Virus record (IMG/VR): IMGVR_UViG_3300047172_000172
Span: 1 to 35,917 of that record
Length of the DNA: 35,917 nt
Source: a virus
Reading direction: 5' to 3' (one strand)
Shown here: piece after piece, positions 10,010 to 28,337 of the stretch
How the letters are laid out: each line of letters opens with the position of its first letter
How positions within the stretch are numbered: position 1 is the first letter of the stretch
Translations under genes and position numbers: made by a program
The notes under the pieces: model-generated
The model's input: only the letters and a program-made list of their open reading frames with translations
Told to the model about the DNA's origin: nothing
The model's database searches: none

Positions 10010-12085
10010 CTAGTGGTGTCCCTGTAGCGCCTTGATCTGATTCTTGAGCGCTGCGATCTCGCCTTGAAGATACTGGATGGCCGCAAGTCCCACGGCGCCG
10101 ACCGCGTTGAGGTCCGCGCTTTTGTGGGCGGGCGCGATGTCTTTCGAGGTGTCGTCCGCGATGAATCCGATGTGTCGCGTCTCGCCGCGCTTGCAGTGCT
10201 CGCGCTTGTAGCAGTAACGAACTATGCGGGTACGCATCGCCACATCGAACGCTTGGCGCTCGCCGTACGATCGAATATTCGACTTTAGCTTGCGCTGCGA
10301 CGCTGCGTAGTAGTTGCCGGCGATGCCTTCGTTGCCCGACATGTCGTAACAGGCGTACGTCGTGTACGGCGAATTGACGTTGTAAATGTCGAAAGCAGAG
10401 CACGAGATGCCGCCTGCAGCGGAACTCGATGCGTATCCGAGGCCAGTTGATCCAGCGAAAGTCAGACCGACCGACGGAACATTGATTGGCTGGTTAAATG
10501 TGAAGTTTGATCCCGTCCAATACTCGTATGCGGACGCGGCATTGCCCCAGAAAATGGCGCCCGTATTCGTTGATCCGCGCTGAACAAGAATGTCTCCCTG
10601 GGTTTGAATCGAAGCGCTTGATGCCTGTCCAAGCCCGTCGACAACGATCTGCCCGCCGGGTTGGACGAGACTGAAGACCCCGCTATTCGTAAGCGACGCG
10701 AGTTCGCCGATACCGCCGGAGTTGATGTTCAGCCAGCGGAATCCAAGCGAGCTCGTCTGGACGTCCGTGAAATTCATCCCGCCATCGGATGAATTCGAGA
10801 TCGTTGGACATCCGACGACTTCGCCCGCATTGAGACTGATGCACGCCGTCGACGACGTTGGCTGAAGGTAGTAGTCGCCGCCCGTGTCGATCGTCGATGC
10901 GACCGATCCGCTCCCGGGCGCACCGTTGATGAATTGGAAACCGCTCGTTGATCCGGATTTAACCGACAACTCAAGGCCGTGCTGTGACGTACCGTCGTCC
11001 GCGATCCCCGCGCTATTCGCAGAGAGCAACGACGGCGCGGTAATTCCTGACGAAAAAGTTTTTGATCCCGCAGCCGTCTGGTTTCCCGTGAGGCTCAGAT
11101 AGTCGCCGTGCGAGAGCCCGACGGTCGGCGTCGTGCTCGACGTGACCGAGACGCCCGTGCCGCCTACGAGCGACGTGACGCATGTCGGGCATCCGACCGA
11201 CGCGACGCCGCCCGACGTGCTTGACGTGATCGGGAATCCACCAACGACGGATCCAAGACCGCTCGTGCACGTGTTCGAAGACACGACGCCGGAAGAGTTC
11301 GTCTGCAAGCAACCGGCGCCGAGGCTTGAGATCGTCAGACCCGCGACGCTCGGCGATCCGCCGGCCGCGATGAAGCCGCCGAACGGCGCGACGGGCGCGA
11401 TCATGCCCGTCGTGATGACGGTCGTGCCAGAGGGGATCGTGACCTGCGCGATGCCGACCCATCCCGTCGTCGCGGTGGGTGCGACGGGGGACGATGCGGG
11501 CGTGCCCGCGATGACCTGATAGTTGATGACGTCGGAGCGCGTGATCGGCAGCGATTCGTTCGTCGTTCCGCCGCCCGTGGGGTTCTGGAACTTGACCGTC
11601 TGATTCGCGCCGTCGGTCACGACGATCTGCGCTTCGACGAGATAGATGACCGAGTTCCCGGAGCTCGGCGCCGTCATCGGGCCAATGCCGCCGAGCGGTC
11701 CGTTCTGCTGACCGATGAGCACGACCGGATTCATGTCGGCCGAGAGCTGGACGGCCTGATTCTGCGGAAGCGGCAGCGGGTCTTCGGGCTTGATCTGATA
11801 GACGGTGCCGAAGCCGATGCCGCTGTTAGCCGGCTGCACTTCGACGTACATTCCGCCATTCGGAACGACGGCGAGATTCGCGTACATGCCGTTCGTAACG
11901 TTCGAGCCGAGCACGTCGCGCGCGAGAAGGCCGAGCGCGATTCGATCGTCGCGCGTCTGCTGGTTGAGCTGGTTCGCCGAGGGCACGGAGCCGGACGTCG
12001 TGATCGTACGATCTTCCGCGATCGCCGGCGTGCGCACATTGGCACATAGCAAAGCGAGCGCGAGTGCGCCGAGAATCTTTCGCAC
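10010..12085 (-). CDS. Tail-fibre-like protein with signal peptide and C-terminal peptidase S74 chaperone domain
   Basis: About 691 residues. The GTG at 12085 is preferred because AGAGG lies five bases before it; another GTG lies at 12091. The N-terminus (MRKILGALALALLC, ending TPAIAE) is a convincing Sec signal peptide. The body is Ser/Thr/Gly-rich, beta-structured and typical of trimeric fibres. The C-terminus is a peptidase S74 (intramolecular chaperone) domain. SQRKLKSNI holds Ser596 and Lys601, the Ser-x4-Lys dyad used for self-cleavage in endosialidase-type fibres. GFIADD follows, then a terminal coiled coil (AAIQYLQGEIAALKNQIK). In this family the domain drives trimer folding and is then released. 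It lies directly after the collagen-like fibre, as a tail fibre should. The export signal is unusual for a phage fibre and is shared by the genes downstream. Confidence 0.88.
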   Translation of the reverse strand: MRKILGALALALLCANVRTPAIAEDRTITTSGSVPSANQLNQQTRDDRIALGLLARDVLGSNVTNGMYANLAVVPNGGMYVEVQPANSGIGFGTVYQIKPEDPLPLPQNQAVQLSADMNPVVLIGQQNGPLGGIGPMTAPSSGNSVIYLVEAQIVVTDGANQTVKFQNPTGGGTTNESLPITRSDVINYQVIAGTPASSPVAPTATTGWVGIAQVTIPSGTTVITTGMIAPVAPFGGFIAAGGSPSVAGLTISSLGAGCLQTNSSGVVSSNTCTSGLGSVVGGFPITSSTSGGVASVGCPTCVTSLVGGTGVSVTSSTTPTVGLSHGDYLSLTGNQTAAGSKTFSSGITAPSLLSANSAGIADDGTSQHGLELSVKSGSTSGFQFINGAPGSGSVASTIDTGGDYYLQPTSSTACISLNAGEVVGCPTISNSSDGGMNFTDVQTSSLGFRWLNINSGGIGELASLTNSGVFSLVQPGGQIVVDGLGQASSASIQTQGDILVQRGSTNTGAIFWGNAASAYEYWTGSNFTFNQPINVPSVGLTFAGSTGLGYASSSAAGGISCSAFDIYNVNSPYTTYACYDMSGNEGIAGNYYAASQRKLKSNIRSYGERQAFDVAMRTRIVRYCYKREHCKRGETRHIGFIADDTSKDIAPAHKSADLNAVGAVGLAAIQYLQGEIAALKNQIKALQGHH

Positions 12086-12093
12086 GTGCACCT

Positions 12094-14547: not shown

Positions 14548-15735
14548 TCACGCCACGCTCAGGACGACGGTCCCCGCATAGAACTGATTCGCGAACGCTG
14601 CGGTCAGTTCGACCGTCCCGCTATTCACCTCGAGTGCGGTGACGTCGAGGATGTCCGAGGACGATTGAATGATCGCTCGGTAGATCTGCGCGATCGAAAG
14701 CGTCGTCGTCCCACCAGTCGGTGAGAGTCCGATGCTGTTGATGTACGCTTCGACCGCGGTCTGCGCAGCCTGCGGCACCGCAACGACGTCCGCACCAGCC
14801 GCAAGCGTGAGCGTTGCCGTGATGTTGACCGCGGTAACAACCGAACCGATCACGAGATAGTTCGTGCCGGCCGTGTGGTTTGCCGCAATCGCAGCTTCCA
14901 CGTTGTCGATGAGCTCGGTCTCGGTCGCGGTCGTCGCGCCCAGTTCGTTGACGACGATCGTCACCCAGCCGTCTTGGGCGGTCGTGTTATTGAAGTTGTC
15001 GGCAACGGATACCGTCAGCCCGGGCTGCACGCCCAAGGCTGTCGCGAGAATCGAGAGGACCGACCCACCGTCCTGCCCGCCGCCGAACTTCGCCTGGAAG
15101 CGCGCAAGATACGCAGCGTCCGATTCAGCGTCGATCGCTGTTGAGAATGCGGCCGGATTCGTGACCGAGCCGATACCGATCGGAACGACCGGACCCGCAA
15201 GGATGAGGTTGATCTGATTCGGCTGCGCGTTGCCGATCGTTCCCGCGATCGTGCACTGCACCGTGACGCTCACCGTGCTCGGCGTCGAAAGACCCGCAGG
15301 CGAGATGACGTATCCACCGAGCGCCTGAGAGTACGCGCCGTTCGTGGGATCGGCGATGACCGTGAAGATGAGGCCGGACTGCGTGCCGAACGTCGCACCG
15401 ACCGGAACGACAATCTGCGTAACGACCGGAGAGTTCGTCGTGCACGTGACTTGACCGACGGCAAACGAGGCAAGCAGCCGCGGGAAGTTGTAGGCGGCAA
15501 GCGCCGCGTCCAGATCGGAGCCCGAGAGATTCTGGAAGCGTGAAATATACACGCCGTATTGAAGCTGACTGCTTTGCTGCATCAAAGCAGTACGCATTGC
15601 GTAAAAGAAGGCCCCGAATTGCGAGATCTCGCCGAGGCTGACGACCGGAATGCCACCGCGCTCGCATTCCGCAGCGTAGAGGCTTGCGATTAGCGCATCC
15701 CACTGGGCTGCAGATAACGGCGAAAGGCCTGCCAC
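14548..15735 (-). CDS. Baseplate J-like protein
   Basis: 395 residues with a GTG start close behind the gp25-like gene. It shows the baseplate J (gp6/gp47-like) pattern: helical N-terminus, a beta domain rich in Val/Thr (VVPVGATFGTQSGLIFTVIA), the conserved ESDAAYLARF stretch near residue 205, and a C-terminal domain with repeated Val-rich strands and SPTGGTTTLSIAQIYRAI. In P2, Mu and T4-type baseplates these proteins form the wedge ring that links the central hub to the fibres and changes shape during contraction. Neighbours gp25-like upstream and an I-like protein downstream fit. Confidence 0.9.
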   Translation of the reverse strand: MAGLSPLSAAQWDALIASLYAAECERGGIPVVSLGEISQFGAFFYAMRTALMQQSSQLQYGVYISRFQNLSGSDLDAALAAYNFPRLLASFAVGQVTCTTNSPVVTQIVVPVGATFGTQSGLIFTVIADPTNGAYSQALGGYVISPAGLSTPSTVSVTVQCTIAGTIGNAQPNQINLILAGPVVPIGIGSVTNPAAFSTAIDAESDAAYLARFQAKFGGGQDGGSVLSILATALGVQPGLTVSVADNFNNTTAQDGWVTIVVNELGATTATETELIDNVEAAIAANHTAGTNYLVIGSVVTAVNITATLTLAAGADVVAVPQAAQTAVEAYINSIGLSPTGGTTTLSIAQIYRAIIQSSSDILDVTALEVNSGTVELTAAFANQFYAGTVVLSVA

Positions 15736-15736
15736 T

Positions 15737-16180
15737 CTACGCCCCCGCTGTCAGTGCACTAATATCTATCGACGGGATCACGATCGGCGTCCCGCTTGCG
15801 GTGTATGCGCTGATCGTAAGGGAAATCGCATTCCGCGACGTCTGCGTTGCGGTGACCGTTGGAACGGGTGTCGCGGCGACATCCGGGAATTGCGCGAGCG
15901 CCGCGGTGACGCGCGCCGTGATGTCGTTCAGAACGGCCGTCGTGAGCTTCTTGCCGATGATCGCTCGTAGGCCCGCGCCGAGATCCGGAAAGTAGACCGA
16001 GTCGGGCGGAGAGATCGGGTTGCCGTTCACGTCGATGAGTCGCGGATTCGTCAGCACGAGGAAGATGATGTGCTGCCGCGTGCACGCAGGATCGGTCGGC
16101 GTATCCGTCACGAGCTGGATGTCGCCGTTTGCCGCGAACTGCATGCCGCCGCCGTACGATCGCGCCATGTCGGTCGGCAT
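15737..16180 (-). CDS. gpW/gp25-like baseplate wedge protein
   Basis: 147 residues. The short N-terminal strand with DIQLVTDTPTDPACTRQHI, followed by a helical hydrophobic segment (IIFLVLTNP) and YFPDLGAGLRAIIGKKL, fits the gp25/gpW baseplate wedge family, whose members nucleate sheath assembly at the baseplate. The C-terminal half has a T/V-rich strand region. It lies between the spike and J genes, the expected place. A second Met at residue 5 could be the true start. Confidence 0.82.
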   Translation of the reverse strand: MPTDMARSYGGGMQFAANGDIQLVTDTPTDPACTRQHIIFLVLTNPRLIDVNGNPISPPDSVYFPDLGAGLRAIIGKKLTTAVLNDITARVTAALAQFPDVAATPVPTVTATQTSRNAISLTISAYTASGTPIVIPSIDISALTAGA

Positions 16181-16183
16181 GGA

Positions 16184-16966
16184 TCACTCCTCCGATTCGA
16201 CGGTACTTGATCCGGTAGCCGTGACGCTGAGGGTCGTGGTCGGCACCGCAGAAACGCCGCCGCCAGTCTGAACGCCTGAATGTACGTGCGCGTTGATGTA
16301 CGTCATGATCGTGTTCAGCGCGGTCTGCAGCTTGCTCTCGGTCACGAGCCGATCGTTCGCGGTAAGACCCGCCTCGCCGATGAGAATGTCGCCTGCGGCA
16401 TCGTCGATGATGATGCGCTTGCCCGTCGGAAGGCCGAGGATCGTCTGCTGCGTCGAGTCGTTCGACGTGATACCACGCCCTGCGGCCGTGAGCGCCTTAA
16501 AGAGCGTCCCCGCGAGCATCTGCAGCCCACCAAGACCATCGCTTGCGCCCGCACCGTTCTGCGTCATCTTGTACGATGCGATCACGTCGCCGGCGGGATT
16601 GCGGAGCAGTATCCATCGCTCACCCTGCGGGACGTTACTCGAATCGACCCCAGCCGTCGGAGTCCGATGAACGTGCGCGACGTATCCGCCCTGCACCGAG
16701 GCGAGGAAGCACGGCTCGCCACCGAAGGGACCGTACGTGTCGTCGATGTGCGTTGTCGCGAGCGGAACGGACTGTTCGACCATCGGCTGGGTCTGCTGAT
16801 CGCCCGGGAAAACAATCGCTGCATCGCACAGCATGACGTCGACCGTTGCCGTGGCGGGATTGTAAGATCCCGGAACGACCATTCCATGCCGACCGATCGG
16901 CATGTGATTCGCGAGCGCTTCCTGGATGAGAAGCGAGACCTGCGCCATATCGTCAACGGTGAGCAC
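16184..16966 (-). CDS. Baseplate spike protein, gpV-like with HxH iron-binding tip motif
   Basis: 260 residues. The N-terminal half is an OB-fold-like region (GMVVPGSYNPATATVDVML). The C-terminal half carries a helical/beta spike and the motif AHVHSGVQTGGG with His227 and His229. In P2 gpV and Mu gp45 an HxH motif at the spike tip coordinates an iron ion, and an Ala-His-x-His followed by Gly-Val-Gln-x-Gly-Gly-Gly is characteristic of baseplate assembly protein V families. It is the piercing tip below the tube. The GTG start shares one base with the upstream stop (TAGTG). Confidence 0.88.
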   Translation of the reverse strand: MLTVDDMAQVSLLIQEALANHMPIGRHGMVVPGSYNPATATVDVMLCDAAIVFPGDQQTQPMVEQSVPLATTHIDDTYGPFGGEPCFLASVQGGYVAHVHRTPTAGVDSSNVPQGERWILLRNPAGDVIASYKMTQNGAGASDGLGGLQMLAGTLFKALTAAGRGITSNDSTQQTILGLPTGKRIIIDDAAGDILIGEAGLTANDRLVTESKLQTALNTIMTYINAHVHSGVQTGGGVSAVPTTTLSVTATGSSTVESEE

Positions 16967-18390
16967 TATGAAAGCTCCCCGGACAATATCGCGTGATTCA
17001 CCGCTTCAACCGTGCACTTCCAACCCTCAGAAAGAGAGAGTTTGTGGGTGATCTTCCGCGGCCAGTAGGTTGCGTTGAACCGATCGTATGGAAGTCCCGA
17101 GATTTTGAACTCCGAACGAATTTTGACCTGAGAAACCAGCTCTATCTTCATCGGGAACGTGAAGACGAGTCGATACTCCAGGGACGCGATCTGACGCGCG
17201 ATCGCAGTCGCTAGCGTGTTGCATGTCTCGGGGCTTTGATTCGGGACGTAATACGAGTACTTTTCGACGTTACTTGGCCCGGACGCGAGTCCCGACCTCG
17301 ATGTAACGCTGCCGCCCGTTGACGTTGCTTCGGAGAACGTCGTTCCGGTAGGTCCGGTTGTCTGACTGAGCGTCGAGTTCGTCCCGTAAAGCGGAATCGA
17401 CTTGCTGATCGTCTGACTCGATGTGATCTTCGTTGCGGCGAGAGTTACCGGATCAACCGTGATGCGCGTGCGCGTCGCAACGCGCGTCCGGATGTTGAAC
17501 GAGTGCACGTCGACCTGGACGTTGTTCGACTGCCGGAGTGCGTGGCTACCGATTATCCCGTCTTGTAGCGCGAAGTCTCGACCGTGGACCAATGAGATCG
17601 GCGTGCCACGATTAACGTACCGCGCTTGCTGATAGTAAATCGTGTCGTCTTCAAGCCAGACGTCCGCGTCGTCGAAACTGGCGCCTTGGATGAGAAGGTC
17701 GGCTGCGCTCTTTCGGTACACCGTCGCCGCGAACGCAGCGCCACCAATGAACTCGCGACCAAGAAGCTGCTGAACGGTGACGGGGTTCGCGATCGGCTGA
17801 TTTGGCCCAACTGCAAGAAGTCCCGCGGCCGTCGCCTGCTCTTGAAGAAACGTTGACGAGACGACCTCGCCGATCGTCAGCCGCGTGATTTTCGTGTCGG
17901 CGAGGTCAGCCGCGATCGAGCGAAGCTGGAATGTCACGGCGCCTTCGTTGAACGGCGCATCGTAGCTCTCGATCACGCCCAGGAAGAGTCGGACCATGCC
18001 CGTCGTGTCGAGGCTACCATACTGCGGTGACTCGAAAAGGCCGGCCCACAATTCGAAATAGACGGACGGATTCGATGTCGTCTCCGCGTTTGAGAGGTCC
18101 GAGCTATTGAGACTGATTGATGACGGCGCGCCGCTCGCATTTGTCGTGATTGTCGAAGACGTATCGGAGGACGCGTCGCCAAGAATGATCGAAAAGTCCG
18201 GATTGCCGACGATCGCAAGCGTGCACTCTGCTTCATTTGAGAAGCCATGCGCGACAAGTTCAACCGATGCGTCGATGACTTCGTAGCTCGTGCCGTTGAT
18301 GATTGCGACCATCCGCGGCGCCGATGTCTCGAATGACGGCGTGAGCGTGACGTCATCAAGATCAACGAAGTCACTAAACGATGCGCTCAC
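16966..18390 (-). CDS. Baseplate hub protein, late-control D / gp27-like
   Basis: 474 residues. It occupies the hub position between the LysM-type baseplate protein and the spike. Its pattern fits the gpD/Mu gp44/T4 gp27 hub: an N-terminal beta-barrel with VRLFLGVIESYDAPF near residue 135, a middle domain with ADLLIQGASFDDADVWLED, and a C-terminal barrel (RLVFTFPMKIELVSQVKI). The hub forms the trimeric-to-hexameric adaptor between tube and spike. It has a GTG start overlapping the stop of the upstream gene (GTGA). A Ser/Thr-rich insert lies at about 90-110. The assignment rests on position and general pattern. Confidence 0.8.
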   Translation of the reverse strand: MSASFSDFVDLDDVTLTPSFETSAPRMVAIINGTSYEVIDASVELVAHGFSNEAECTLAIVGNPDFSIILGDASSDTSSTITTNASGAPSSISLNSSDLSNAETTSNPSVYFELWAGLFESPQYGSLDTTGMVRLFLGVIESYDAPFNEGAVTFQLRSIAADLADTKITRLTIGEVVSSTFLQEQATAAGLLAVGPNQPIANPVTVQQLLGREFIGGAAFAATVYRKSAADLLIQGASFDDADVWLEDDTIYYQQARYVNRGTPISLVHGRDFALQDGIIGSHALRQSNNVQVDVHSFNIRTRVATRTRITVDPVTLAATKITSSQTISKSIPLYGTNSTLSQTTGPTGTTFSEATSTGGSVTSRSGLASGPSNVEKYSYYVPNQSPETCNTLATAIARQIASLEYRLVFTFPMKIELVSQVKIRSEFKISGLPYDRFNATYWPRKITHKLSLSEGWKCTVEAVNHAILSGELS

Positions 18391-19295
18391 GCAGCAGCCT
18401 TAAACGTGGTCGACCGAAGACTCTGCGGAATGAAGATAAGCGTCGGGTTCGTCTTCGAGAGGATCGGTGAGTAGATGCCGTTCGCCGTCATGATTGCGAA
18501 CGCTTGACTCGCATCACCGCAATACTGCGCGGCCACGTCGAACATCGTTCCGCCCGTCACCTTAACGCTCGCGGACGTCTCGGCTGATTTGATGTTCGCG
18601 CCGAGCAGCGTGAGGCTGTCAACGGCGCTGTTGATCGGCAAAAACCGCGCGTCGGTCGAAGGGATCGTGGCAGCGTACGCCTGAGCCTGCGTGAGAACAC
18701 TCGCGGCCTGAGCCGAGAGCGCCGCGATCGCGGTCCCCGAGGACGTCGCGAGGGGCGTCTGAGCGACTGTCGTGCTCAGAGAGGCCGCGTTTGCCGCAAG
18801 GGTCGATGCAGACGCGTCCTGCGTCACGATTAGCCCGATGTTGTTACTCGCGTTGCCAGCAAGACTCTGGTTCTGCGCGTCGGGGGAGACGGCCGAGGAC
18901 CCGTTGAGCGTTCCGGTCGCCGATCGCGTCAACTCAAGTGTGATGTCGTAGTTCGTCGTGAGGTATGCGGCGTCGAACGTGAAGTCGGTGACCTTGCCGT
19001 ACCACTTCTGCGAGCCGTACGAGATAGAGATTTCCTGGGCCGACGTCATGTAGGACGTGAGTTGCGCGACCTTCGAATCGATATTCTCGATGAATGTACC
19101 GCGCCAGTTGACGGGCTTCGGCTGCGCACCGACCGCCATCGTGACGCGGCCGCCGCCGAAGAGTTCGATGACGACGAGCTTATGCGAAAGTGACCCGAGC
19201 GAGAATCGCTCAGGAAGCTCGAAGGGCGAGAAGATCGCCGCACCCTGGATGTAGAGCGGCTTTGGGCCTGCGTTCTCGGAAGAAGCGTAGGCCAT
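18387..19295 (-). CDS. LysM-like tube/baseplate initiator protein
   Basis: 302 residues from the ATG at 19295, which has GAGG seven bases upstream; a TTG one codon earlier is less likely. The N-terminal half (SLGSLSHKLVVIELFGGGRVTMAV, then KPVNWRGTFIENI) resembles phage proteins that sit at the tube-baseplate joint, of the type called DNA circularisation or gp53-like. A Ser/Ala-rich helical middle follows. The last about 55 residues (VKVTGGTMFDVAAQYCGD, ending LIFIPQ) look like a LysM fold, common in such baseplate proteins. The product probably contacts peptidoglycan or the tube end. It overlaps the hub gene by four bases. Confidence 0.8.
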   Translation of the reverse strand: MAYASSENAGPKPLYIQGAAIFSPFELPERFSLGSLSHKLVVIELFGGGRVTMAVGAQPKPVNWRGTFIENIDSKVAQLTSYMTSAQEISISYGSQKWYGKVTDFTFDAAYLTTNYDITLELTRSATGTLNGSSAVSPDAQNQSLAGNASNNIGLIVTQDASASTLAANAASLSTTVAQTPLATSSGTAIAALSAQAASVLTQAQAYAATIPSTDARFLPINSAVDSLTLLGANIKSAETSASVKVTGGTMFDVAAQYCGDASQAFAIMTANGIYSPILSKTNPTLIFIPQSLRSTTFKAAA

Positions 19296-19311
19296 CAACT
19301 CACCTCAGACT

Positions 19312-19845
19312 TTAGGGATAGCCCTCAACGAAAATGCCCTGCTGATCCCCAGCGGTCCAACACGATTTCCCCTCGTCTGGCCCGGAGAGAATCCGCAATT
19401 TAACGACCGTTCCGAGCATCCCGGCATGATCTAATATCCGGACTTTCATGCCCGGCATCAGTAGCACGGCGTCAGACGTTGAATCAAGGTAGCCCTGGTT
19501 GTCGCTCTGCACGAGGGCGCTCGTCATCGCATCGAACTTCTCTTTACTTATCGGACACGCTTGATATTGATCGTCGCCAGCTTTCGCAACCGCGCCGATC
19601 GTCTTCAGATTCATATCCGGTGCCGAAGCATCGGTCGGTGCCGACGTGGCAGCGGCCTGCGCAGCTACGGCGGCTTCTATTTCTTGCTCAGTAGGGCCAG
19701 GTTGCGGAAACGCAATGGTAAGGATCAGGAATGGAAGGGTAGCGATGCCGGCCCACCTCGCCAGCTTGTATTCCTTCGCCATGCCAGCGACGATCGCGGC
19801 GAAGCCGAACGCTACGAAAACAACCGGCCAAAGCACCGTATGCAT
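19312..19845 (-). CDS. Two-helix membrane protein with SH3-like periplasmic domain; moron candidate
   Basis: 177 residues inserted between the tape measure and the baseplate genes. Residues 5-22 (LWPVVFVAFGFAAIVAG) and 32-46 (AGIATLPFLILTIAF) are hydrophobic helices. A Pro/Ala/Thr linker follows, then a C-terminal domain of about 90 residues with two Cys. Its MKVRILDHAGMLGTVVKLRI resembles a small SH3-like/KOW-like barrel. No structural phage family fits. A perfect -10 hexamer (TATAAT) ends six bases before the ATG and there is no Shine-Dalgarno, so the transcript would be leaderless and independent of the late operon. This layout is typical of a moron, for example a membrane protein expressed in the prophage state to alter the host envelope or exclude other phages. 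That role is inference. Confidence 0.78.
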   Translation of the reverse strand: MHTVLWPVVFVAFGFAAIVAGMAKEYKLARWAGIATLPFLILTIAFPQPGPTEQEIEAAVAAQAAATSAPTDASAPDMNLKTIGAVAKAGDDQYQACPISKEKFDAMTSALVQSDNQGYLDSTSDAVLLMPGMKVRILDHAGMLGTVVKLRILSGPDEGKSCWTAGDQQGIFVEGYP

Positions 19846-19857
19846 GGCGGCATTATA
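19846..19857 (-). promoter_or_regulatory. Consensus -10 box predicting a leaderless transcript
   Basis: TATAAT occupies 19857-19852 on the minus strand and is followed by six bases and then the ATG of the 177-residue membrane protein. With the usual spacing the first transcribed base would be the A of the ATG. No recognisable -35 hexamer is seen at 16-18 bases upstream. The element lies in the 37-base gap after the tape measure stop. Confidence 0.6.
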
Positions 19858-19882
19858 AACCAGATCGTCGCCTAGCGGGAGG

Positions 19883-22186
19883 CTACTGGCCGTAAGCCTT
19901 CCCGATCGTCAACCACGCCGGTGCCTTGGAGCTCACCGGAGCGCCCTGGACGAGCGACGTCTTCTTGCGGAAGTCTCGGAAGTGCTTCCCGAGGTCTTCC
20001 TTGTTCTTGACGCCCGGCAGAACGAGGTCGCCCTGGACGACAACCGACTGCCCGTTGCCAGCCTGGCTCGCCGGCAAAAGGCCGTAGCCCGCACGGTAAG
20101 CCGCGTCGTTGTTCGCCTGTTGCTGGTGAATCCACGACGCGAAGTTCATCGCCATCCCCTGAAAGCCGGTCGATGCCCCAACGTTGCCCGTGATGCTATT
20201 CCACAGCGAATCACGGATGAAGCCGCCAAGCGCCGGAAGGGCGTTTGCGAGGGCCTTCATCGCTGCGGCCCACGCTCCCGTGATCGCCGAGACGAGCGCA
20301 GGCTTACCCACATCGTCAATCCACCGGTTCGCTTTGCCGAGGGCAAAGTTGATGTCGGTCCCGTGCTTCACGAATTGCTGGATCGCGTCAATGATCAGCG
20401 TGATGTTCCCGATGACCGGGATCGCCCGAAGGCCCAGCCGACCGACCGTCTCAGCAAGTAGCGAGAGGCCGCCGCGCGTGAAGAGCACTTCGCGACCGAA
20501 CGTCCGAAATAGACCGCCCAGGTCTTTCATTGCGGACCCGAGCCGCCCGATTGTCGGAAAGAAATCAACGCCGTTTCCGAACAGCGACCCGATGCGGCCT
20601 ATCCCTCCGCCCATGCGCGCGATGCCCTCGCCCGCTCCCCCGAGGTGTCCCCAGCCGCCAATGCCAATGCCGCCCGCCTTCGCTGCGGCGTGCGCGAACA
20701 CACCGATGCCGCCGAGCATCTTCAGCGCGTAGTACGCACCGGCAGCAGAGACAACTGCGAGGCCACCCGCTGCGATATTCTGCGCCGCAGGGTGCTGCGA
20801 GAGGTACATCGCGGCGCCGCCTGTCAGCTTCGCGAGGTTGCCCACGAGAGAGGTGAGCGGCGCGATTAGCGGACTTGCGAGCAACGTGGCGAGAGTCTGG
20901 AAATTCGATGTGAGGAGCTTCGTTTGATTGTTGAGCGATCCCATGAGCTCAACCTGAGCCTTTTGGAGATCCTCGACGCGGCTCATCGTTGCCGTGACGT
21001 TCGCGCGCTGCGCGATACCAGCGTTCGACGAAAACGCTCCGACGATGAGGCCAGCGTTTGTGTTGAACGCTCGTCCGAGCTCCTGATTGTAGGTGCCGAC
21101 CGTACCGTTCTTGCGCGCAGCGTTGTACTGCGTGTTCAGATATGCGAAAAGTGCTTCGGGATTGAACGCACCCGTCCGCTGATCGATGAACCGGCTGCGC
21201 CCGTCAGCGCCGAGAAGCCCGAGGGCACTCTGCGCGGCGAGCATCTTCGCTCCCGAGGGATTCTGCAGATTCCGAAGGGCCATATTGAGGCCCGTTCCGG
21301 ATTTTCCGCCGCCGTAGCCGAGTCGATCGGCCGTGGCCTGCAGCATGAGTATCTCGGACGGCGAGACCCCCGCATTCGCGAAATTTGCGCCGTAATACTT
21401 GATCTGCTTCGCAGCCGTCTTCAGACTGTCGGGCATATCGTTCGAGATTTTGAAGAGCGTATTCGCAAACGGCGCGAGCTGGCCGGCCGTCCGAAGGTTG
21501 AGTTCGTGTGCGAGAGTCGCAAGCATGGCCGTCGACTGGTCGAACGAAACGTGGTTCTTTCCGAGGTACTGCGTATCGGCGAATTTTGCGATCGGCATCG
21601 CGAGCGCGCGCAACTGCGCCGGGTCGTTGATGCCCGAGGTGGCCATTGTGCGAAGAATACCCATCGACGCCGTGACGCTCTGCGCCGTCGACATGGACAT
21701 CTGCATCGCCAGCGGCACGAGATTGTCTGAAACGTACTTGTTTGAGCGGCCAAGGGCGATGGCGGTCTGAATTGACGCGTCTTGAAGGTTCGACGCTCCG
21801 CGAATACCGATCGCTTCGGTTGCAAGCCCGCCGATCGCGAGTCCCTTGCCGAGATTGCCGAGTCCGCCGAAAAGGCCGCCACCGACGCCGCCGACACTTG
21901 AGCGGGTCGCTACCGTGGATGCCCGATTCAGACGGGCCGTCGCAGCCGCAGCGCCGTCGGCCGAGGCCGTGACCTTGGCAAACGTGTCCGCTAGACCGGT
22001 GTAACCGGCGGTCGCGCGTTCCGTGACGCCGACCGACGCCCCTATGGTCCGGTTGAGCGAGCGCATAGCCTTCGCCATCGCCTCAAGACCGGCCGCGCTC
22101 TGTTCCGAGAGCTTCGCGATCGACTCAAGAAACTCGAGGTTGCCGGTAAACAGAAAGCGCGAAGAGACGGTGAAAGAATCTGCCAC
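19883..22186 (-). CDS. Tail tape measure protein
   Basis: 767 residues, the longest gene of the tail-shaft module. It has a helical, Ala/Leu/Gln-rich N-terminal half with phage_MinorTail-type TMP character. A glycine-rich hydrophobic region follows at about 480-560 (GGIGVFAHAAAKAGGIGIGG) and a hydrophobic segment with RAIPVIGNITLIIDAI near 625, as in many tape measures. In such phages this protein sets tail length and travels with DNA; about 0.15 nm per residue would predict a tail of the order of 115 nm. The start is a GTG with AAGAGG eight bases upstream. It follows the frameshifted chaperone and completion genes, as expected. Confidence 0.88.
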   Translation of the reverse strand: MADSFTVSSRFLFTGNLEFLESIAKLSEQSAAGLEAMAKAMRSLNRTIGASVGVTERATAGYTGLADTFAKVTASADGAAAATARLNRASTVATRSSVGGVGGGLFGGLGNLGKGLAIGGLATEAIGIRGASNLQDASIQTAIALGRSNKYVSDNLVPLAMQMSMSTAQSVTASMGILRTMATSGINDPAQLRALAMPIAKFADTQYLGKNHVSFDQSTAMLATLAHELNLRTAGQLAPFANTLFKISNDMPDSLKTAAKQIKYYGANFANAGVSPSEILMLQATADRLGYGGGKSGTGLNMALRNLQNPSGAKMLAAQSALGLLGADGRSRFIDQRTGAFNPEALFAYLNTQYNAARKNGTVGTYNQELGRAFNTNAGLIVGAFSSNAGIAQRANVTATMSRVEDLQKAQVELMGSLNNQTKLLTSNFQTLATLLASPLIAPLTSLVGNLAKLTGGAAMYLSQHPAAQNIAAGGLAVVSAAGAYYALKMLGGIGVFAHAAAKAGGIGIGGWGHLGGAGEGIARMGGGIGRIGSLFGNGVDFFPTIGRLGSAMKDLGGLFRTFGREVLFTRGGLSLLAETVGRLGLRAIPVIGNITLIIDAIQQFVKHGTDINFALGKANRWIDDVGKPALVSAITGAWAAAMKALANALPALGGFIRDSLWNSITGNVGASTGFQGMAMNFASWIHQQQANNDAAYRAGYGLLPASQAGNGQSVVVQGDLVLPGVKNKEDLGKHFRDFRKKTSLVQGAPVSSKAPAWLTIGKAYGQ

Positions 22187-22207
22187 GCGCTACGCCTCTT
22201 CGGAATC

Positions 22208-22222
22208 TGCTATAGTGCTGGG
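22208..22222 (+). promoter_or_regulatory. Extended -10 promoter with leaderless start, plus strand
   Basis: TGCTATAGT gives an extended -10 (TG at 22208-22209, hexamer 22211-22216), followed by exactly six bases and the ATG at 22223. It points away from the tape measure gene. No -35 hexamer is evident, which extended -10 promoters do not strictly need. The geometry is the same as at 19846-19857. Confidence 0.5.
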
Positions 22223-22537
22223 ATGGCTCGAAAAGTCGTCTCGCTCAGGCCGAAGCTCGCGCAGAAGGCAACGAAGCAGCGACGCGCCGCCGATCAGACG
22301 AAGCGCGAAGCCGATCGGGCCATGTACCTCGCGGCGATTGACCATCTCGAGCAGACACCAGGCTACCGCGAGCGATCGGACATCCACGACGTGCTGGCGT
22401 CGGTCATCGCGGCATTTCACGTGCGCGCCGCGAGTCTCTCCTCACGGTTCGTGCCTAGATCGCCTCGTCCCGAGAAACCTCGGCAAATGCGAGCACTTCC
22501 AGTGGACGACGGTTCCCCGTCATCGCCTTCATCGTAG
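22223..22537 (+). CDS. Lone plus-strand small basic protein; moron candidate
   Basis: 104 residues if read to its stop. It is the only plausible plus-strand gene in the window. The first about 78 residues look coding: Lys/Arg/Gln-rich helix (KLAQKATKQRRAADQTKREA), then an amphipathic region (AMYLAAIDHLEQ, SDIHDVLASVIAAFHV), with mostly G/C third bases and frequent G first bases. The last 28 residues run antisense to the 22455-22925 gene and look less protein-like. There is no Shine-Dalgarno, but the extended -10 just upstream predicts a leaderless mRNA. A competing minus-strand frame of 76 residues (22190-22420) covers the same bases and ends three bases before the tape measure start, so the strand is not certain. 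Possible roles are a small regulator or nucleic-acid-binding protein; no family is recognised. Confidence 0.42.
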   Translation: MARKVVSLRPKLAQKATKQRRAADQTKREADRAMYLAAIDHLEQTPGYRERSDIHDVLASVIAAFHVRAASLSSRFVPRSPRPEKPRQMRALPVDDGSPSSPSS

Positions 22538-22925
22538 CGCCCGCGATCGCTTCCACTTCTGGCAACGCCGCAGCCGATCCGATCGCGATAGCGGGCCGCG
22601 GTGGGATGCGAGCCGTCCCGAATTCTTGGTATTCGGCCACTGGCTCCTCGGAGCCGACACGAAAGCCAAGAGAGTCGTACTCGATCTTTATCGAATCGCG
22701 GAGCAACTCGCCCGTTCGGACGAGCGGATCGTTCGGTGTGTATCCCAATCGCACGCGTTCAGCTTGTGTGGATTCCGCGAGGTCTTGCAGCTTACTCGCG
22801 TCCCCGTACGTCTCTTGAATATGTCGCTTCACGGCCTGGGCCATGAGCGTCTCACCCAGATGCTCGGTCGTGGCCGATGTCGCCGCAAGTTCAAACATGC
22901 GAGTCGCGAATTGACGAGGTGTCAT
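22455..22925 (-). CDS. HK97-gp10-like tail completion protein
   Basis: 156 residues. The pair LVRTGELLRDSI (residues about 68-79) and EYQEFGTARIPPRPAI (about 98-113) is the signature of the HK97 gp10/phage virion morphogenesis (tail completion) families, whose members act at the head-tail interface or tail end. Its ATG overlaps the TGA of the frameshifted chaperone extension by four bases (ATGA), so it is coupled to that frame, which in turn supports the frameshift. Placement between chaperone and tape measure rather than with the neck genes is unusual. Confidence 0.8.
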   Translation of the reverse strand: MTPRQFATRMFELAATSATTEHLGETLMAQAVKRHIQETYGDASKLQDLAESTQAERVRLGYTPNDPLVRTGELLRDSIKIEYDSLGFRVGSEEPVAEYQEFGTARIPPRPAIAIGSAAALPEVEAIAGATMKAMTGNRRPLEVLAFAEVSRDEAI

Positions 22926-23478
22926 TTCACTCCGATGTCAACAACGAAAAGACGCGGCGGGACCTTCCATCCTAACCGATCGTAGTCGTACGTTCCGAGT
23001 CGTCGCTCGCCGACCGCGATCGTGAGCGCGACTAACTCTCCGTCGGTGAGGAGGAGCGTTTCCTGGTACGAGATGCCGGCGAGGATGGCGTCGGCGACTC
23101 TGGCGAGTCTTCCGTCGCCGTGAACTCGTTTTTTAGGTCTTCCCCGCTAACGTCGAACGCTTCACGATATGCTTTGCCGCAGTCTTCGATTTCCGATCCG
23201 TGCACACGATAGAACATGCCCTTAAGGTCCGATTCATTGTCGAGAGCCGGAACATCGACGCCGTTTACGCTTACGATCGCGGCGAGAACGCGGCGATACG
23301 AGACGTCGATCGGGCTGAAGTCCTTCGCGAAGTTGACCATTCGATCGACCGTCAAGAGCTCCGCGCCGTTGAGCTCGCGGAGAACGAAGACGCGACCACT
23401 GCGCGCCGTCGTTTCGGTAGTTCGTTGCGAGAGAGGCCCGAGCGCTTTATCAAAGTCGGCGAATTTGTCTTTAGGCAA
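22922..23478 (-). CDS. Tail assembly chaperone, -1 frameshift fusion product
   Basis: The long form is made by a -1 slip at 23128-23134 after residue 117. The new frame continues for 68 residues (from RVHGDGRLARVADAIL to VVDIGVK) with no stop until TGA at 22922, about 185 residues in all. The extension looks protein-like and exactly fills the gap before the next gene. This is the arrangement of lambda G/GT and of P2 E+E', where the fusion binds the tape measure and recruits tube subunits during assembly. The position just before the tape measure module agrees. Coordinates span both frames. Confidence 0.78.
23032..23478 (-). CDS. Tail assembly chaperone, short (unshifted) form
   Basis: 148 residues when read without frameshifting. 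The core (residues 1-115) is helical: FVLRELNGAELLTVDRMV, YRRVLAAIVSVNGVDVPAL and DCGKAYREAFDVSGEDL, typical of the G/E-type chaperone that coats the tape measure. After the slippery site the zero-frame tail is a Ser/Pro/Arg-rich run (residues about 120-148) that looks like read-through of a sequence selected in the other frame. It starts 13 bases after the tube gene. Confidence 0.82.
   Translation of the reverse strand: MPKDKFADFDKALGPLSQRTTETTARSGRVFVLRELNGAELLTVDRMVNFAKDFSPIDVSYRRVLAAIVSVNGVDVPALDNESDLKGMFYRVHGSEIEDCGKAYREAFDVSGEDLKNEFTATEDSPESPTPSSPASRTRKRSSSPTES
23128..23134 (-). other. -1 programmed ribosomal frameshift site (A AAA AAC)
   Basis: The coding-strand heptamer A AAA AAC is in the correct phase for a -1 slip (zero-frame codons CTA AAA AAC), with the AAC as codon 117 of the chaperone. 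Slipping re-pairs both tRNAs on AAA AAA and opens a 68-codon frame that ends in ATGA with the next gene. I did not evaluate a downstream pseudoknot. Confidence 0.75.
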
Positions 23479-23491
23479 TGGCTACTGCTTT

Positions 23492-23947
23492 CTAATTGAC
23501 CTTGATTTTCTGCTCGGCCTCGATGCGCACGCGCATCACAACGTCTTGGTCTTTGCGGTACGGGCCGAAGTCTTCCACGTAGAGCAACGCGTTCTGATAT
23601 TGGTATTCGTTGAACGAGCCGTCTTCCTGATTCAGAACAGACGCCGTCACCGTGTATCGGTGGTTGATTCCAGACGTGATGTAGTCCTGAAAGTTCTTCG
23701 CTTCCAGGTCTTCGAGATCGCCCGTCGATCGCGTCACGTTGATCATCACCGCGTAATCGCCGTACGCCAAACGCTTGACGTTCGTCGGGCGATCAATCGG
23801 CTTGACCGTGATGAGATCGTGGTTTGCGGATCCCTGAAATTCGGTGATGAATCCGCCGAACGAGATAGACGCGCCCGAATCGAGATCGACAACCGTTACG
23901 GTGAGGTCCGTACCAGTGTTGAACGTGTTCAGCGTGTTGACGGGCAT
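23492..23947 (-). CDS. Tail tube protein
   Basis: 151 residues directly downstream of the sheath, the standard sheath-tube order. It is a compact beta-rich protein (DLTVTVVDLDSGASISFGGFI at the start, then VMRVRIEAEQKIKV at the end) of the size of P2 FII/Mu gpM-type tubes. It has AGGAG nine bases upstream, and an intrinsic terminator separates it from the sheath gene. The tube should stack in hexamers around the tape measure inside the sheath. Confidence 0.82.
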   Translation of the reverse strand: MPVNTLNTFNTGTDLTVTVVDLDSGASISFGGFITEFQGSANHDLITVKPIDRPTNVKRLAYGDYAVMINVTRSTGDLEDLEAKNFQDYITSGINHRYTVTASVLNQEDGSFNEYQYQNALLYVEDFGPYRKDQDVVMRVRIEAEQKIKVN

Positions 23948-23973
23948 CTGCGGGCACTCCTAATTGGCAACGC

Positions 23974-23997
23974 AAAAAAAGCACGACGCTGCGTGCC
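23974..23997 (-). terminator. Intrinsic terminator between sheath and tube genes
   Basis: On the coding strand a GCACG/CGTGC stem (23981-23996), extendable by a G-T pair, with a six-base loop is followed at once by seven T residues (23980-23974). A second hairpin, ACGGTC-GGTT-GACCGT, lies 5' of it at 24009-24024. It sits in the 86-base gap after the sheath stop. Since the tube, chaperone and tape measure lie beyond it, it is likely partial or antiterminated, and would lower their transcription relative to the sheath. Confidence 0.65.
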
Positions 23998-24033
23998 GAT
24001 CAGGGGCGACGGTCAACCGACCGTAAGAGGAAG

Positions 24034-25596
24034 TTAGGCGGCCTGCCCGAGCAGTCCGGAGACCGCAACGGTCGAGCCGACCTGCACGAACGCCATCGCG
24101 AAGTACACCGCCGGGAACGTCTCGCCGGTCACGTTCACGATCAGTTGCCGTGCGAGCACGGTCGAACTGAGGTTGTTCGTCTTGTCGCAGATCGCGTTGA
24201 AGTCTTGAAGTTCACCCGCGTTCTCATACTGCGATCCCAATGCGTTGAGACCGTTACGCACCGCGGTGCGCGTTTTGTCCGTATCTGCTGAGGGATCGGA
24301 GACGTTGAGCGGTGGGACGCTTTGCTTCGCGCCGATGTAGTTGTACAGGAACGACTTCACGGCGCTTGCGACTTCGATCTGCATCCGCGAGTCCGCGATG
24401 AACGATCCGTCCGAGGCGAGACCGTGCGCCAGTCGGAAGAGATTGTTCGTGTACGAGAATTTTCCGAGATAGATGATGTTGTTCTCGAAGAGCAGCGACT
24501 GATCGCCCGCATCGAGGCCCTGACCCGCGGTGGCCTCGGTCTGGTTGATCCCCGCGGCGCCCGCTGTGGGCTGATTGATCGGATCGTCCGAGGGGTCCAA
24601 GGACGCCATGATGCCGGCGATCTTGCCCATCGGCGAGACCCAGAGTTGCGTTCCCGAGTACGTGTCGAACACGTAGTCCCAGAAGCCGCACGTGATGAGC
24701 CACGGCGACGACAGGGAGTTTGTGATCTTGTTCGCGACCATCTGCGTCGGCGACGAACCGAGCGGAAACGCGTGCATGATGAACCCGGTCTGCTCGGACT
24801 CCGCGAATGCGATTGCATCCGGGATGACCGAGGGGTCCGTGTTCGCTGCGAGGATGAGGAAGTCGAACCCCGTCCCGCCGAGCGCGTACATGCCCGTGCG
24901 CGTTGCGGAGTCGCCCGGCACGCCGAGCAGCTGCGCCGACGTGACGCCGGACGCGCCGTCCGTGCCGCCCGAGGCGGTGAACGTCGTCCCGGTCACCGGG
25001 ACCGCAGTAGACGTGCCGGCCGTCGCCACGAAGTTCTGCGAAGCCAGGGAGTTCGGCGTCGTGCCGTTGATCGCAGCCAAGAGGTTCGCGATGAAGGTTG
25101 CCGCGACGTACGGACCGCCTGCGGTCGCGTAACCGACGATCCCGCCGAACTGCTCGCTCGAGCGGTTCGAGTAGTTCAGCGTGACGCGGTAGACGGGAGA
25201 AGCGGTGATCGTGCCCGACTGCAGGGTTAGGATCGCGGTCGCCGCGTTCGCGTTCGATCCCGGACGGATCGCGACGAACGAGGCTACGACAACCCCCGCA
25301 CCGTCGAGCAGCTCGATGACGGCAGCGGTCTCCGTGCCGTCCGTGACGCGCACGCCGACGAAGTTGGCACCTTCGGGCATGGCGGAGAGCGCTTCACGAA
25401 CGAGCGAACTGTTCAGAAGCGATCCCGTGCCGAAGACCGCAGCCATCGAATTCGCATCCGAGAAATATTGCGGTGTGTTCGGCGGTCCGTCGGTTGCGGT
25501 GCCGACAATGCCGATGAGATTCGTAAAGCCCGTCTGCACCGCGGCCGGAGACGCGGGAACGAGCGTGACGGTAACGCCGGGAAGGTTGTTTCCCAC
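24034..25596 (-). CDS. Tail sheath protein
   Basis: 520 residues. The N-terminal LPGVTVTLVPASPAAVQTGF is the typical sheath arm opening, followed by GIVGTATDGPPNTPQYFSD, and the C-terminus ends in a beta arm (VGSTVAVSGLLGQAA). A central domain with SALPEG-type segments and a C-terminal domain with GKFSYTNNLFRLAHG match contractile sheath organisation. The sheath contracts to drive the tube through the envelope, which establishes this as a myovirus-type tail. The GTG start follows the stop of the small upstream gene directly, with GAGGAG six bases upstream. Confidence 0.88.
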   Translation of the reverse strand: MGNNLPGVTVTLVPASPAAVQTGFTNLIGIVGTATDGPPNTPQYFSDANSMAAVFGTGSLLNSSLVREALSAMPEGANFVGVRVTDGTETAAVIELLDGAGVVVASFVAIRPGSNANAATAILTLQSGTITASPVYRVTLNYSNRSSEQFGGIVGYATAGGPYVAATFIANLLAAINGTTPNSLASQNFVATAGTSTAVPVTGTTFTASGGTDGASGVTSAQLLGVPGDSATRTGMYALGGTGFDFLILAANTDPSVIPDAIAFAESEQTGFIMHAFPLGSSPTQMVANKITNSLSSPWLITCGFWDYVFDTYSGTQLWVSPMGKIAGIMASLDPSDDPINQPTAGAAGINQTEATAGQGLDAGDQSLLFENNIIYLGKFSYTNNLFRLAHGLASDGSFIADSRMQIEVASAVKSFLYNYIGAKQSVPPLNVSDPSADTDKTRTAVRNGLNALGSQYENAGELQDFNAICDKTNNLSSTVLARQLIVNVTGETFPAVYFAMAFVQVGSTVAVSGLLGQAA

Positions 25597-25803
25597 TTAC
25601 GACTCCTCGGAGGGCGCGACCGTCACCGGCGCAGGGATGTTGGGGGTAGGCGCACCGTCAAGGATCGACGGCTGATCCACACAGAGGCGCAACTTCGAGC
25701 GATCGGCTTTGACAAGTGCCGCGTCTTCGGGAGAGAGCGTGGTGCCCACGGCGTAATAGCGCCCGTTCAATTCGAACGGCGCTCGAGTGACAACCAAGGC
25801 CAC
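25597..25803 (-). CDS. Small protein upstream of the sheath, GTG start
   Basis: 68 residues. The start is the GTG at 25803, decided by AAGGAG six bases before it. The protein has a folded-looking core (RAPFELNGRYYAVGTTLSPE, then DRSKLRLCVDQP) followed by a Pro-rich tail (APTPNIPAPVTVAPSEES). The stop abuts the GTG of the sheath gene, so the two are coupled. No family is recognised. Small proteins at this place in related tail modules are often neck- or sheath-associated, but this is only position. Confidence 0.65.
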   Translation of the reverse strand: MALVVTRAPFELNGRYYAVGTTLSPEDAALVKADRSKLRLCVDQPSILDGAPTPNIPAPVTVAPSEES

Positions 25804-25819
25804 GGGCGTCTCCTTGCGA

Positions 25820-26452
25820 CTAGGTTTCGGTGATGGTGAGCGTGCGGTTAGGGAAGGCGATCGTCGCGATTGCCTCGTCGATTTCTTCGTAGGTGACGGG
25901 GGCCGAGAGCACGCCGTAGTCCACGTCGATGAGGACATCGGCGCGCTTTAGCTGCACTTCCGCGATCATTTCGTCCGTGCGGCGAGGGCCGAGAACGTAC
26001 TGCATACGCACTTTCGTGCCGTCGGGAAGCATCAGCCACTGGCCGCCGGCAACGTCCGTTCCGAGAGCTTGCATGATCGCGTCCGCGATCTCGTCACGGA
26101 GCGTGTCGGTTGCGGCCCAGACGGTCGACTGCACGCGCTGCGATCGGCGAGCGACTTCCTGACGCATCGAACCATCGTTGAGAACTACCGTGGGCGGATC
26201 AATCCACTTTTGGGACGACTGCCGGGTCGGTTCGACGGCGTTGACCGCTATTGTGTAGCCGCCGTCTTCGGCAGCGTACCGGATGGAGTCTTGTTCGTTC
26301 GCGTCCGGCCAGCCAGCCGTGATATTCCAACCCTGCAGAAAACGATTGACCGTGTTCGTAGAGATCGGGAAGATCTCGTTCGTCGCGATCGCATTGGCGA
26401 TCAGCGGCAAGATCGATTCCAGGATCATGTCGACTCTGCTCGCGGTCGCCAT
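25820..26452 (-). CDS. Neck/tail terminator candidate
   Basis: 210 residues, helical N-terminus (RVDMILESILPLIANAIATNE) followed by an alpha/beta region and a C-terminal TYEEIDEAIATIAF. Its position between head-completion genes and the sheath, its length and its ATG coupling to the upstream gene (TGATG) fit a tail terminator or neck protein of a contractile phage. No motif confirms it. Confidence 0.75.
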   Translation of the reverse strand: MATASRVDMILESILPLIANAIATNEIFPISTNTVNRFLQGWNITAGWPDANEQDSIRYAAEDGGYTIAVNAVEPTRQSSQKWIDPPTVVLNDGSMRQEVARRSQRVQSTVWAATDTLRDEIADAIMQALGTDVAGGQWLMLPDGTKVRMQYVLGPRRTDEMIAEVQLKRADVLIDVDYGVLSAPVTYEEIDEAIATIAFPNRTLTITET

Positions 26453-27231
26453 CAGTCGCCCATCAATTCGAGCACCATCACGGTGCCCTGAAAACCGGGA
26501 GCCTCCTGAAGGGCCGAATTGACGATGTACGAGTGGTCGTCATCGAGGTAGAGCACGTCGTCCGAGTTGATCGTGATGCCCGGCAGCGGCGGGATGTACC
26601 CCACGAACCTGGCCGTCGCGGAAGAAGACGGGAGCGCGTTCGCTCGCGTTCCGCCCGCTCTGGCGGTCATCTGAATGCCGATCGGAATGTCCGCCGCGGC
26701 GATGTTCGGCGGCGAAAAGTTGTAGACGCCATCGGTCAGCGAGAGCGATTCACGCGTCGAAACGTCCGACGAAGCGAACGTGCTCGAGACGAACGGAGCC
26801 CCCGGCGTCGCGGCGTTCGGCGTGCCGGTCGGAACGAGATTGCCGACACGCGGACGGTATATTTGAACGAGTTCCTCGCACCGGACGAACAAGGACTCAC
26901 GGGTCGGCCTAGCTTGTGCGAAGCACCACCGCCCGCCGTCGGATTCATAACCGGTTTCGACGAGAATATCGCCAAGCTCAAGATCGACATTCGAGAGAGT
27001 GAACTCCGCGACGATCAGCTCAAGTGGGTCCGCCTCGATCGCTTTCCGATCAGTAATCCGACGAAGGCGACCCTGGTAACCCGTGATGACTGGCTCACCG
27101 TCGAGAATTGAGCCATTCGAGGCGCTAGAGAGTCGATAGACGTCGTACGTTTGGCCAAGGACCGACGCTGCTGCACCGCGACCGGCTTGAATGGCGAGGT
27201 CGATCTGCTTGAGATCGGTCGGACCAAACAT
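26452..27231 (-). CDS. Head-tail joining protein candidate
   Basis: 259 residues. The N-terminal half has the QTYDVYRLSSASNG pattern and beta-rich stretches (LELGDILVETGYES) often seen in head-tail connector/joining proteins. The C-terminal half contains GYIPPLPGITINSDDVLYLDD. It lies in the neck cluster after the capsid genes. Function is inferred from position; the family is not recognised. Confidence 0.72.
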   Translation of the reverse strand: MFGPTDLKQIDLAIQAGRGAAASVLGQTYDVYRLSSASNGSILDGEPVITGYQGRLRRITDRKAIEADPLELIVAEFTLSNVDLELGDILVETGYESDGGRWCFAQARPTRESLFVRCEELVQIYRPRVGNLVPTGTPNAATPGAPFVSSTFASSDVSTRESLSLTDGVYNFSPPNIAAADIPIGIQMTARAGGTRANALPSSSATARFVGYIPPLPGITINSDDVLYLDDDHSYIVNSALQEAPGFQGTVMVLELMGD

Positions 27232-27243
27232 CCCGATCCCTCG

Positions 27244-27498
27244 CTAGGCAGCAGTCTTTCGCGGGCGACCTCGCTTCGGCGTTTCGATCGGCAAGATCGA
27301 TTCCGGCTCGGGCTCCGAACACACCGATAAGGCAATGATGGAAAGCAACCAAAGCGCAACCGACGCCATCTGCATGGCGACAACCTTCATCGACGGCTTC
27401 CCGAGCATCGCCACGCTGTCGTCGTTCGCGATCGCATCCGAGCACTGCTCGCGCGTCCAATCAACGGCCCGAACAATCTCGTCAGCGGTTACGCGCAT
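27244..27498 (-). CDS. 84-residue single-pass membrane protein with basic GRPRK tail
   Basis: A soluble N-terminal 38 residues (TADEIVRAVDWTREQCSDAI) are followed by one hydrophobic helix at about 39-60 (ending LWLLSIIALSVC), an acidic Pro/Glu segment and a basic end PKRGRPRKTAA containing the AT-hook-like core GRP. It overlaps the upstream gene by ten bases and has only a weak GGTGG upstream. Among neck genes a membrane protein is unexpected. It could be a virion-associated small protein, or a membrane protein that binds DNA by its tail. Confidence 0.6.
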   Translation of the reverse strand: MRVTADEIVRAVDWTREQCSDAIANDDSVAMLGKPSMKVVAMQMASVALWLLSIIALSVCSEPEPESILPIETPKRGRPRKTAA

Positions 27499-28319
27499 GC
27501 GCCACCGCTCGACGCGCCGCTAAACTTGCGAATATACTCGTCGCCACCGATCGCTTTCGCGAGCTGCATGCAGTACTCACGATAAACACCACGGCGGGCA
27601 CTCACTTCGTCGTTTCGAAACGTCACGACGTCCGCCTTGACATAGGTGAGGCTAAGACTTGCCTGCGTCATCGAGTTGGCGAGGAAATCGCAGATCGCGA
27701 TGAGCCCGTAGAGCGTCTCCGCGTTACCCGTTACTGGGTTCGTGAAGGTCGCCTGGACGGGAGACGGCGATCCGGGATTCTCAACGACAAGATTCGTTCG
27801 ACCCGCCACGCTGCCCGTGAGCACGAACGGCGTAGGCGATGGCCCCGTGACGATCAATTCCGCGAAATACGGCGGAAGGTACTGCGGCGAAAAGAGATCG
27901 GCCGGCATCGCGCCGACGGCGCTGTACCCTGACGCCCCCGCTACGCCGTTAAACGCTCGAGCGGAATTCAGCGCGATCGAGAACGTCGGTGCCGCTTCCG
28001 AAGGGTTGACCGGGTTCGACTGCGGATTGAGGTCCGAATTCGTCACGTCGTAGGTCGCGACGATCGGCGAGCCACTTGCCGGAGTAAGCGTGTACGTGAG
28101 CACGTCGCCGACCTGCGGCGCGCCGTTGATCGCGTACGATCCAAGCGCATTTCCCGTTAGAATCTGCTCTTCCGACGGCTGAAAGTTGCTCATCTTATAC
28201 TCGAGATCCTCAAAAAATCTCGAGAAGCGCCAACCCGCAAGCCGTCCAGACTGCCCGGTTCCAGCAAATCCGATATTAAGATGCCGGCGGACTGCGATGC
28301 GTTGCGCTTGCGTCAGCAT
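27489..28319 (-). CDS. Head-completion region protein of unknown family
   Basis: 276 residues. GGAGGG seven bases upstream supports the ATG at 28319. The protein is beta-rich with Pro/Ser loops in the middle (PQYLPPYFAELIVTG) and a helical C-terminal part (LYGLIAICDFLANSMTQ, YREYCMQLAKAIGG). It follows the capsid and precedes the neck genes, so a head decoration or completion role is likely. I do not recognise the family. Confidence 0.72.
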   Translation of the reverse strand: MLTQAQRIAVRRHLNIGFAGTGQSGRLAGWRFSRFFEDLEYKMSNFQPSEEQILTGNALGSYAINGAPQVGDVLTYTLTPASGSPIVATYDVTNSDLNPQSNPVNPSEAAPTFSIALNSARAFNGVAGASGYSAVGAMPADLFSPQYLPPYFAELIVTGPSPTPFVLTGSVAGRTNLVVENPGSPSPVQATFTNPVTGNAETLYGLIAICDFLANSMTQASLSLTYVKADVVTFRNDEVSARRGVYREYCMQLAKAIGGDEYIRKFSGASSGGACA

Positions 28320-28337
28320 CTCAGTCCCTCCGGTATC

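Follow-up and report, generated by a model that had tools for sequence, protein, structure and literature searches.

A predicted membrane-protein gene lies between two tail genes

We analysed a 35.9-kb virus record from IMG/VR (35,917 nt; this whole stretch is referred to as the window). Its minus strand carries the terminase region (34547-35062 and 33075-34550) as well as portal, sheath, tape measure and baseplate genes, and a weak sheath match together with a baseplate wedge match assigns the phage a contractile tail. It is of the myovirus type and probably temperate, although the window contig has no identified lysogeny genes, which counts against the reading we prefer below. On the same strand, from 19845 to 19312, runs a moron-like ORF. 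As the original prediction had stated, this gene interrupts the tail operon: it sits between the tape measure gene (PF10145), whose stop codon lies 37 nt upstream, and a LysM/baseplate-type gene, whose ATG is found 16 nt past the stop codon of the moron-like gene. The label LysM-like refers to the sequence appearance of the latter gene, which is conserved in the relatives described below.

Table 1. Features of the moron-like gene and its neighbours in the window.
Feature	Position	Strand	Basis
Moron-like gene, two-TM membrane protein, 177 aa, ATG start	19312..19845	-	ORF and hydropathy; homolog in relative G001 at 38% identity
Tail tape measure protein gene, upstream neighbour	19883..22186	-	PF10145, phrog_28
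LysM-like baseplate/tail gene, downstream neighbour, strong Shine-Dalgarno (SD) sequence GAGGTGAG (-11.5 kcal/mol)	18387..19295	-	phrog_21362, phrog_28233 (both function unknown)
TATAAT, perfect -10 hexamer; predicted transcription start at the A of the ATG or adjacent to it	19852..19857	-	Motif match; no -35 at 15-19 nt spacing
GCCGCC, 6-nt spacer between -10 and ATG, without SD	19846..19851	-	Sequence
Predicted TM1, residues 4-20	19786..19836	-	Hydropathy
Predicted TM2, residues 31-47	19705..19755	-	Hydropathy
C-terminal domain (residues 83-177); its Cys97 and Cys162 are conserved in the G001 homolog	19315..19599	-	Sequence comparison

The base composition of the moron-like gene is unlike that of the genes flanking it, a feature by which morons are recognised. 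Its GC3 of 0.638 is the lowest of the 26 genes, and none of the 1,779 stretches of equal length (177 codons) in the tail genes that flank it falls that low; across all other window genes, 4.8% of such stretches do.

The proposal that the gene encodes a membrane protein is supported by two hydrophobic segments near the N-terminus (Table 1). The loop between them, KEYKLAR, is positive, so that by the positive-inside rule both termini would be outside the cytoplasm, which suggests a topology with both ends outside. An Ala/Pro-rich linker follows the hydrophobic segments and leads to the C-terminal domain, in whose predicted periplasmic location a disulfide is possible. The SH3-like nature that had also been put forward is unproven: AF2, run with two sequences for the full-length protein and for the domain, was uninformative on the fold (pLDDT 42-43), and a profile search of the PDB returned chance-level matches only. 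No family in Pfam, PHROGs, NCBIfam or PADLOC matched the protein above threshold, including the known superinfection-exclusion families, and no enzymatic family was recognised.

Six consecutive minus-strand genes downstream of the baseplate (window 3-12091) begin with Sec- or lipoprotein-like signal sequences, and several of them contain TPTPSP-rich stretches. A 3,147-aa ORF at the corresponding place in the relative G001 (40480-49923) also begins with a signal sequence. Such sequences are unusual for genes in the tail-fibre position.

A perfect -10 hexamer stands in leaderless register

TATAAT occurs once in the window, counting both strands, and shuffled sequence yields a mean of about 1.9. 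Its presence alone is therefore unremarkable, and it is the register that stands out: a single one of the window's 2,620 start codons (0.0004) is preceded by TATAAT at a distance of 5-8 nt. When hexamers with A2 and T6 and at least 3/6 matches were scored at leaderless spacing, the moron-like gene was the only one of 26 genes to carry one. SD pairing at its start amounts to -2.7 kcal/mol, compared to -5 to -11.5 kcal/mol for most other window genes. The perfect TATAAT-N6-ATG without a ribosome site, as originally described, is thus confirmed, and the -10 would place the transcription start at the start codon of a gene that has no SD, which is the arrangement of a leaderless gene.

As to the further claim that the gene has its own promoter, the -10 element is perfect and in exact register, but for a -35 we found only 1-2/6 matches at spacings of 15-19 nt. 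An intrinsic terminator was not found at the end of the gene either; both results count against the preferred reading. With no terminator and 16 nt to the next ATG, a transcript from the gene's own promoter would run into the baseplate genes. Judged from the sequence, own-promoter, leaderless expression of the moron-like gene is well supported.

In Deinococcus, leaderless expression is driven by a -10 element that precedes the ORF by six or seven bp (PMC12340547). The window gene resembles these Deinococcus-Thermus genes in the position of its -10 and in its lack of an SD. Lambda cI, transcribed from PRM, is leaderless too. However, these are host genes or a repressor, whereas the gene in the window is an accessory gene in a late operon whose genes mostly have an SD. 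A literature search for leaderless morons, with a coverage that leaves out most subscription journals, returned nothing relevant.

The junction between the tape measure and LysM-like genes is variable

Five distant relatives of the window phage were examined. G001 (IMGVR_UViG_3300049214_000177) came from a terminase scan, and G002, G005, G008 and later G009 from portal scans; for G009 the search covered the tail junction only. G001 is 91% identical to the window in the terminase and 89% in the portal, but only 24-42% in the tail genes. The tail genes of the relatives in general show mostly 20-45% identity to those of the window, so that insertion of the moron-like gene versus its loss cannot be dated.

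Presence or absence in related tail operons, the check proposed in the original prediction, was determined in these five genomes, and the gene turned out not to be universal: it is missing from the corresponding junction in all of them. Two junctions are closed, with 12 bp (G002) and 9 bp (G009) between the tape measure and LysM-like genes. The other three, in G001, G005 and G008, have a gap of about 340-390 bp with a single gene in it, which runs on the opposite strand and codes for a protein of 105-116 aa. These three proteins are hydrophobic in their C-terminal half, and hydropathy gives a TM segment above threshold for G001 and G008 and below it for G005; they are probably membrane proteins, as predicted from sequence. 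In a four-sequence phmmer set they are weakly related among themselves (E 1e-6 to 1e-2), and no relation to the window protein was found. The window junction showed no remnant of this opposite-strand family. A gene that is present in one phage and missing from the same place in its relatives is what is expected of a moron.

The starts of the junction genes read TATCGT-N6-GTG in G001, TAGAAT-N7-ATG in G005 and TAGGTT-N7-ATG in G008. Their start codons were picked by eye, and these motifs are therefore weaker evidence than that of the window. SD pairing is weak at the G001 and G005 genes, which both look leaderless; the G008 gene is ambiguous, with 3/6 matches to the -10 and a moderate SD pairing of -6.7, and counts against the preferred reading.

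The only homolog of the moron-like protein is encoded by G001 (38% identity, E 1e-21). Its gene (9341-9856) lies about 24 kb from the G001 tail junction and one gene before a tyrosine integrase gene (PF00589, 10182-11297). Together with the absence of the gene from the junctions of the five relatives, this position supports the view of the original prediction that the gene is moron-like and non-structural. The ATG of the homolog has no -10 at leaderless spacing, which counts against the preferred reading. Searches of viral contigs, phages and plasmids with exact peptides and by alignment found no relative of the protein beyond G001, and with this one homolog only two sequences are available to judge constraint on the protein. 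In genome contigs, a terminase/integrase search yielded only integrases of remote similarity, from a Polyangiaceae MAG and from a Lachnospiraceae genome; a domain search of 377 genomes of the phylum of the Polyangiaceae MAG found none, and an empty result there says little.

Two further observations concern G001. The terminase, the portal and the gene at 27489-28319 are 86-91% identical between the two phages (window 24034-35062, G001 14750-29573), and from 27231 down through the tail the identity is 24-42%, which marks a sharp mosaic boundary at about 27.2-27.5 kb of the window. Moreover, on its minus strand G001 has a 359-aa ORF (55610-56689; L007 15610-16689) that by eye resembles an acyltransferase-type membrane enzyme, a possible surface-modifying cargo.

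Komagataeibacter phage phiKX2 offers a more distant parallel, in which the likely tape measure gene (a weak assignment: hhalign E 1e-4, probability 57) and a homolog of the LysM-like gene (hhalign 97.7%) are separated by about 10 accessory genes located on both strands. It differs from the window in that the insert consists of several kb of other genes, and it is only a distant relative, with a portal of 26% identity. Among the genes in the accessory stretch of phiKX2 (L046 3726-8121) are one for a KilA-N protein and one for an Arc-type repressor.

Regulator-type genes of the group may begin in a similar way

In G008, whose record carries an integrase, a Cro/C1-type HTH gene (HTH_26, PF13443, above cut-off) starts with CATAAT-N7-ATG. 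In G001, an ORF at 8498, a putative HTH gene by eye and without a Pfam match, starts with TATTCT-N6-GTG. The G001 integrase gene, like the G001 homolog, does not have the leaderless -10 arrangement. The starts of the two HTH genes nevertheless point to a shared use, among regulator-type genes of the group, of a -10 combined with no SD. From the arrangement at these two genes we infer, as the original prediction had suggested, that the moron-like gene would be expressed specifically while the late genes are silent.

Near the HTH gene, G008 also contains TTGACA-N17-TATAAT-N6-ATG (L044 16682-16720), in which both promoter elements match the consensus and the -10 is in leaderless register. The 78-aa ORF behind it has no Pfam family.

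A moron-like gene that may be expressed in the lysogen

The reading that we prefer, with a probability of roughly 70%, is that of a moron-like accessory gene which occupies a variable site between the tape measure and LysM-like genes, has its own promoter and a leaderless mRNA, and yields an inner-membrane protein made mainly in the lysogen. The gene would have been inserted at this hotspot with a promoter that consists of little more than a consensus -10, placed six nt ahead of the ATG. Its predicted mRNA would begin at the AUG or immediately next to it, and translation would be leaderless. In the long transcript of the late operon, the same AUG would be internal, lack an SD and be poorly used, so that the product would come mainly from the gene's own promoter, which is most likely active in the lysogen. 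The product itself would be a hairpin in the inner membrane that holds a periplasmic domain.

The likeliest role of such a protein would be superinfection exclusion at the step of DNA entry, which is our leading guess and a tentative one. Prophage membrane proteins that act on DNA entry include HK97 gp15, TP-J34 Ltp, Tuc2009 Sie2009 and P22 SieA; escape maps to the tape measure for TP-J34, and for HK97 escape involves exchange of the tail tube and tape measure (PMC10883804). HK97 gp15, like the candidate in the window, is a prophage-encoded predicted inner-membrane protein; it is called a moron and mediates superinfection exclusion. Its gene is also found among tail genes. In contrast, the window protein has no family match, and its phage has the leaderless arrangement and a contractile-type tail. 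Ltp is small and has a membrane anchor and a domain on the outside, as predicted for the window protein, and ltp of TP-J34 adjoins the integrase gene (PMC3952083), as the G001 homolog nearly does. However, Ltp is a lipoprotein with an SD and a Gram-positive host, whereas the window protein has two predicted TM segments and no evident lipobox.

Within the same reading, the lysogen-expressed protein might instead act on the host envelope, by a fitness or receptor change rather than a block of DNA entry, and this variant is likewise possible while falling well short of probable. The probable acyltransferase-type membrane enzyme of G001, assigned by appearance, indicates that surface-modifying genes may occur in the group, and a predicted exported domain with two conserved cysteines would suit such a role. 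The window protein, however, belongs to no recognised enzymatic family, and a position beside the tape measure fits exclusion equally.

We consider it unlikely that the TATAAT is there by chance and that the gene is an ordinary accessory member of the tail operon, whose translation on the late transcript would depend on ribosomes reinitiating past the tape measure stop codon. About two such hexamers are expected in a window of this composition, a -35 is absent and so is a terminator around the gene, all of which speaks for this alternative. It has to accommodate, however, an exact leaderless register found at a single start codon of the window, the lack of an SD, and the similar arrangement seen in relatives, both at regulator genes and at two of the three junctions that are occupied. 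Moreover, reinitiation in the absence of an SD would have to bridge 37 nt, which is a long distance. Less probable still is a morphogenesis gene, that is, a membrane-bound, non-virion factor for assembly or maturation of this tail type: the gene is co-directional with the tail genes and shares their place, but five relatives whose tail genes come in the same order do not have it at the junction, and the G001 homolog sits far from the tail beside an integrase. A holin gene for lysis or a structural tail gene was rejected in view of the empty junction in two relatives and of the position of the same homolog by the integrase.

Returning to the moron-like accessory gene, it would behave like a moron and is not filed as a classical one, because a terminator, which is a classical feature, was looked for and not found. 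In a classical moron, a terminator is expected between the gene and the downstream genes. By a looser definition, morons are independently regulated and beneficial (PMC7380047), and membership then hangs on expression.

More speculatively, and in our estimate doubtful, the site between the tape measure and LysM-like genes may be a group-wide cargo slot that takes up small membrane-protein genes, unrelated to one another and of either orientation. Cargo and lysogeny regulators would share the leaderless -10-N6/7-start, late genes would use an SD, and start context alone would silence the cargo during the lytic cycle and allow its expression in the lysogen. If the preferred reading is right, a lysogen-expressed gene can be insulated inside a late operon without a terminator: omission of the SD would make it deaf to late transcripts, and a bare -10 would allow leaderless expression from its own start. 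The recurrent insertion site beside the tape measure would then be an aid to finding accessory, possibly exclusion, genes in uncultured phages.
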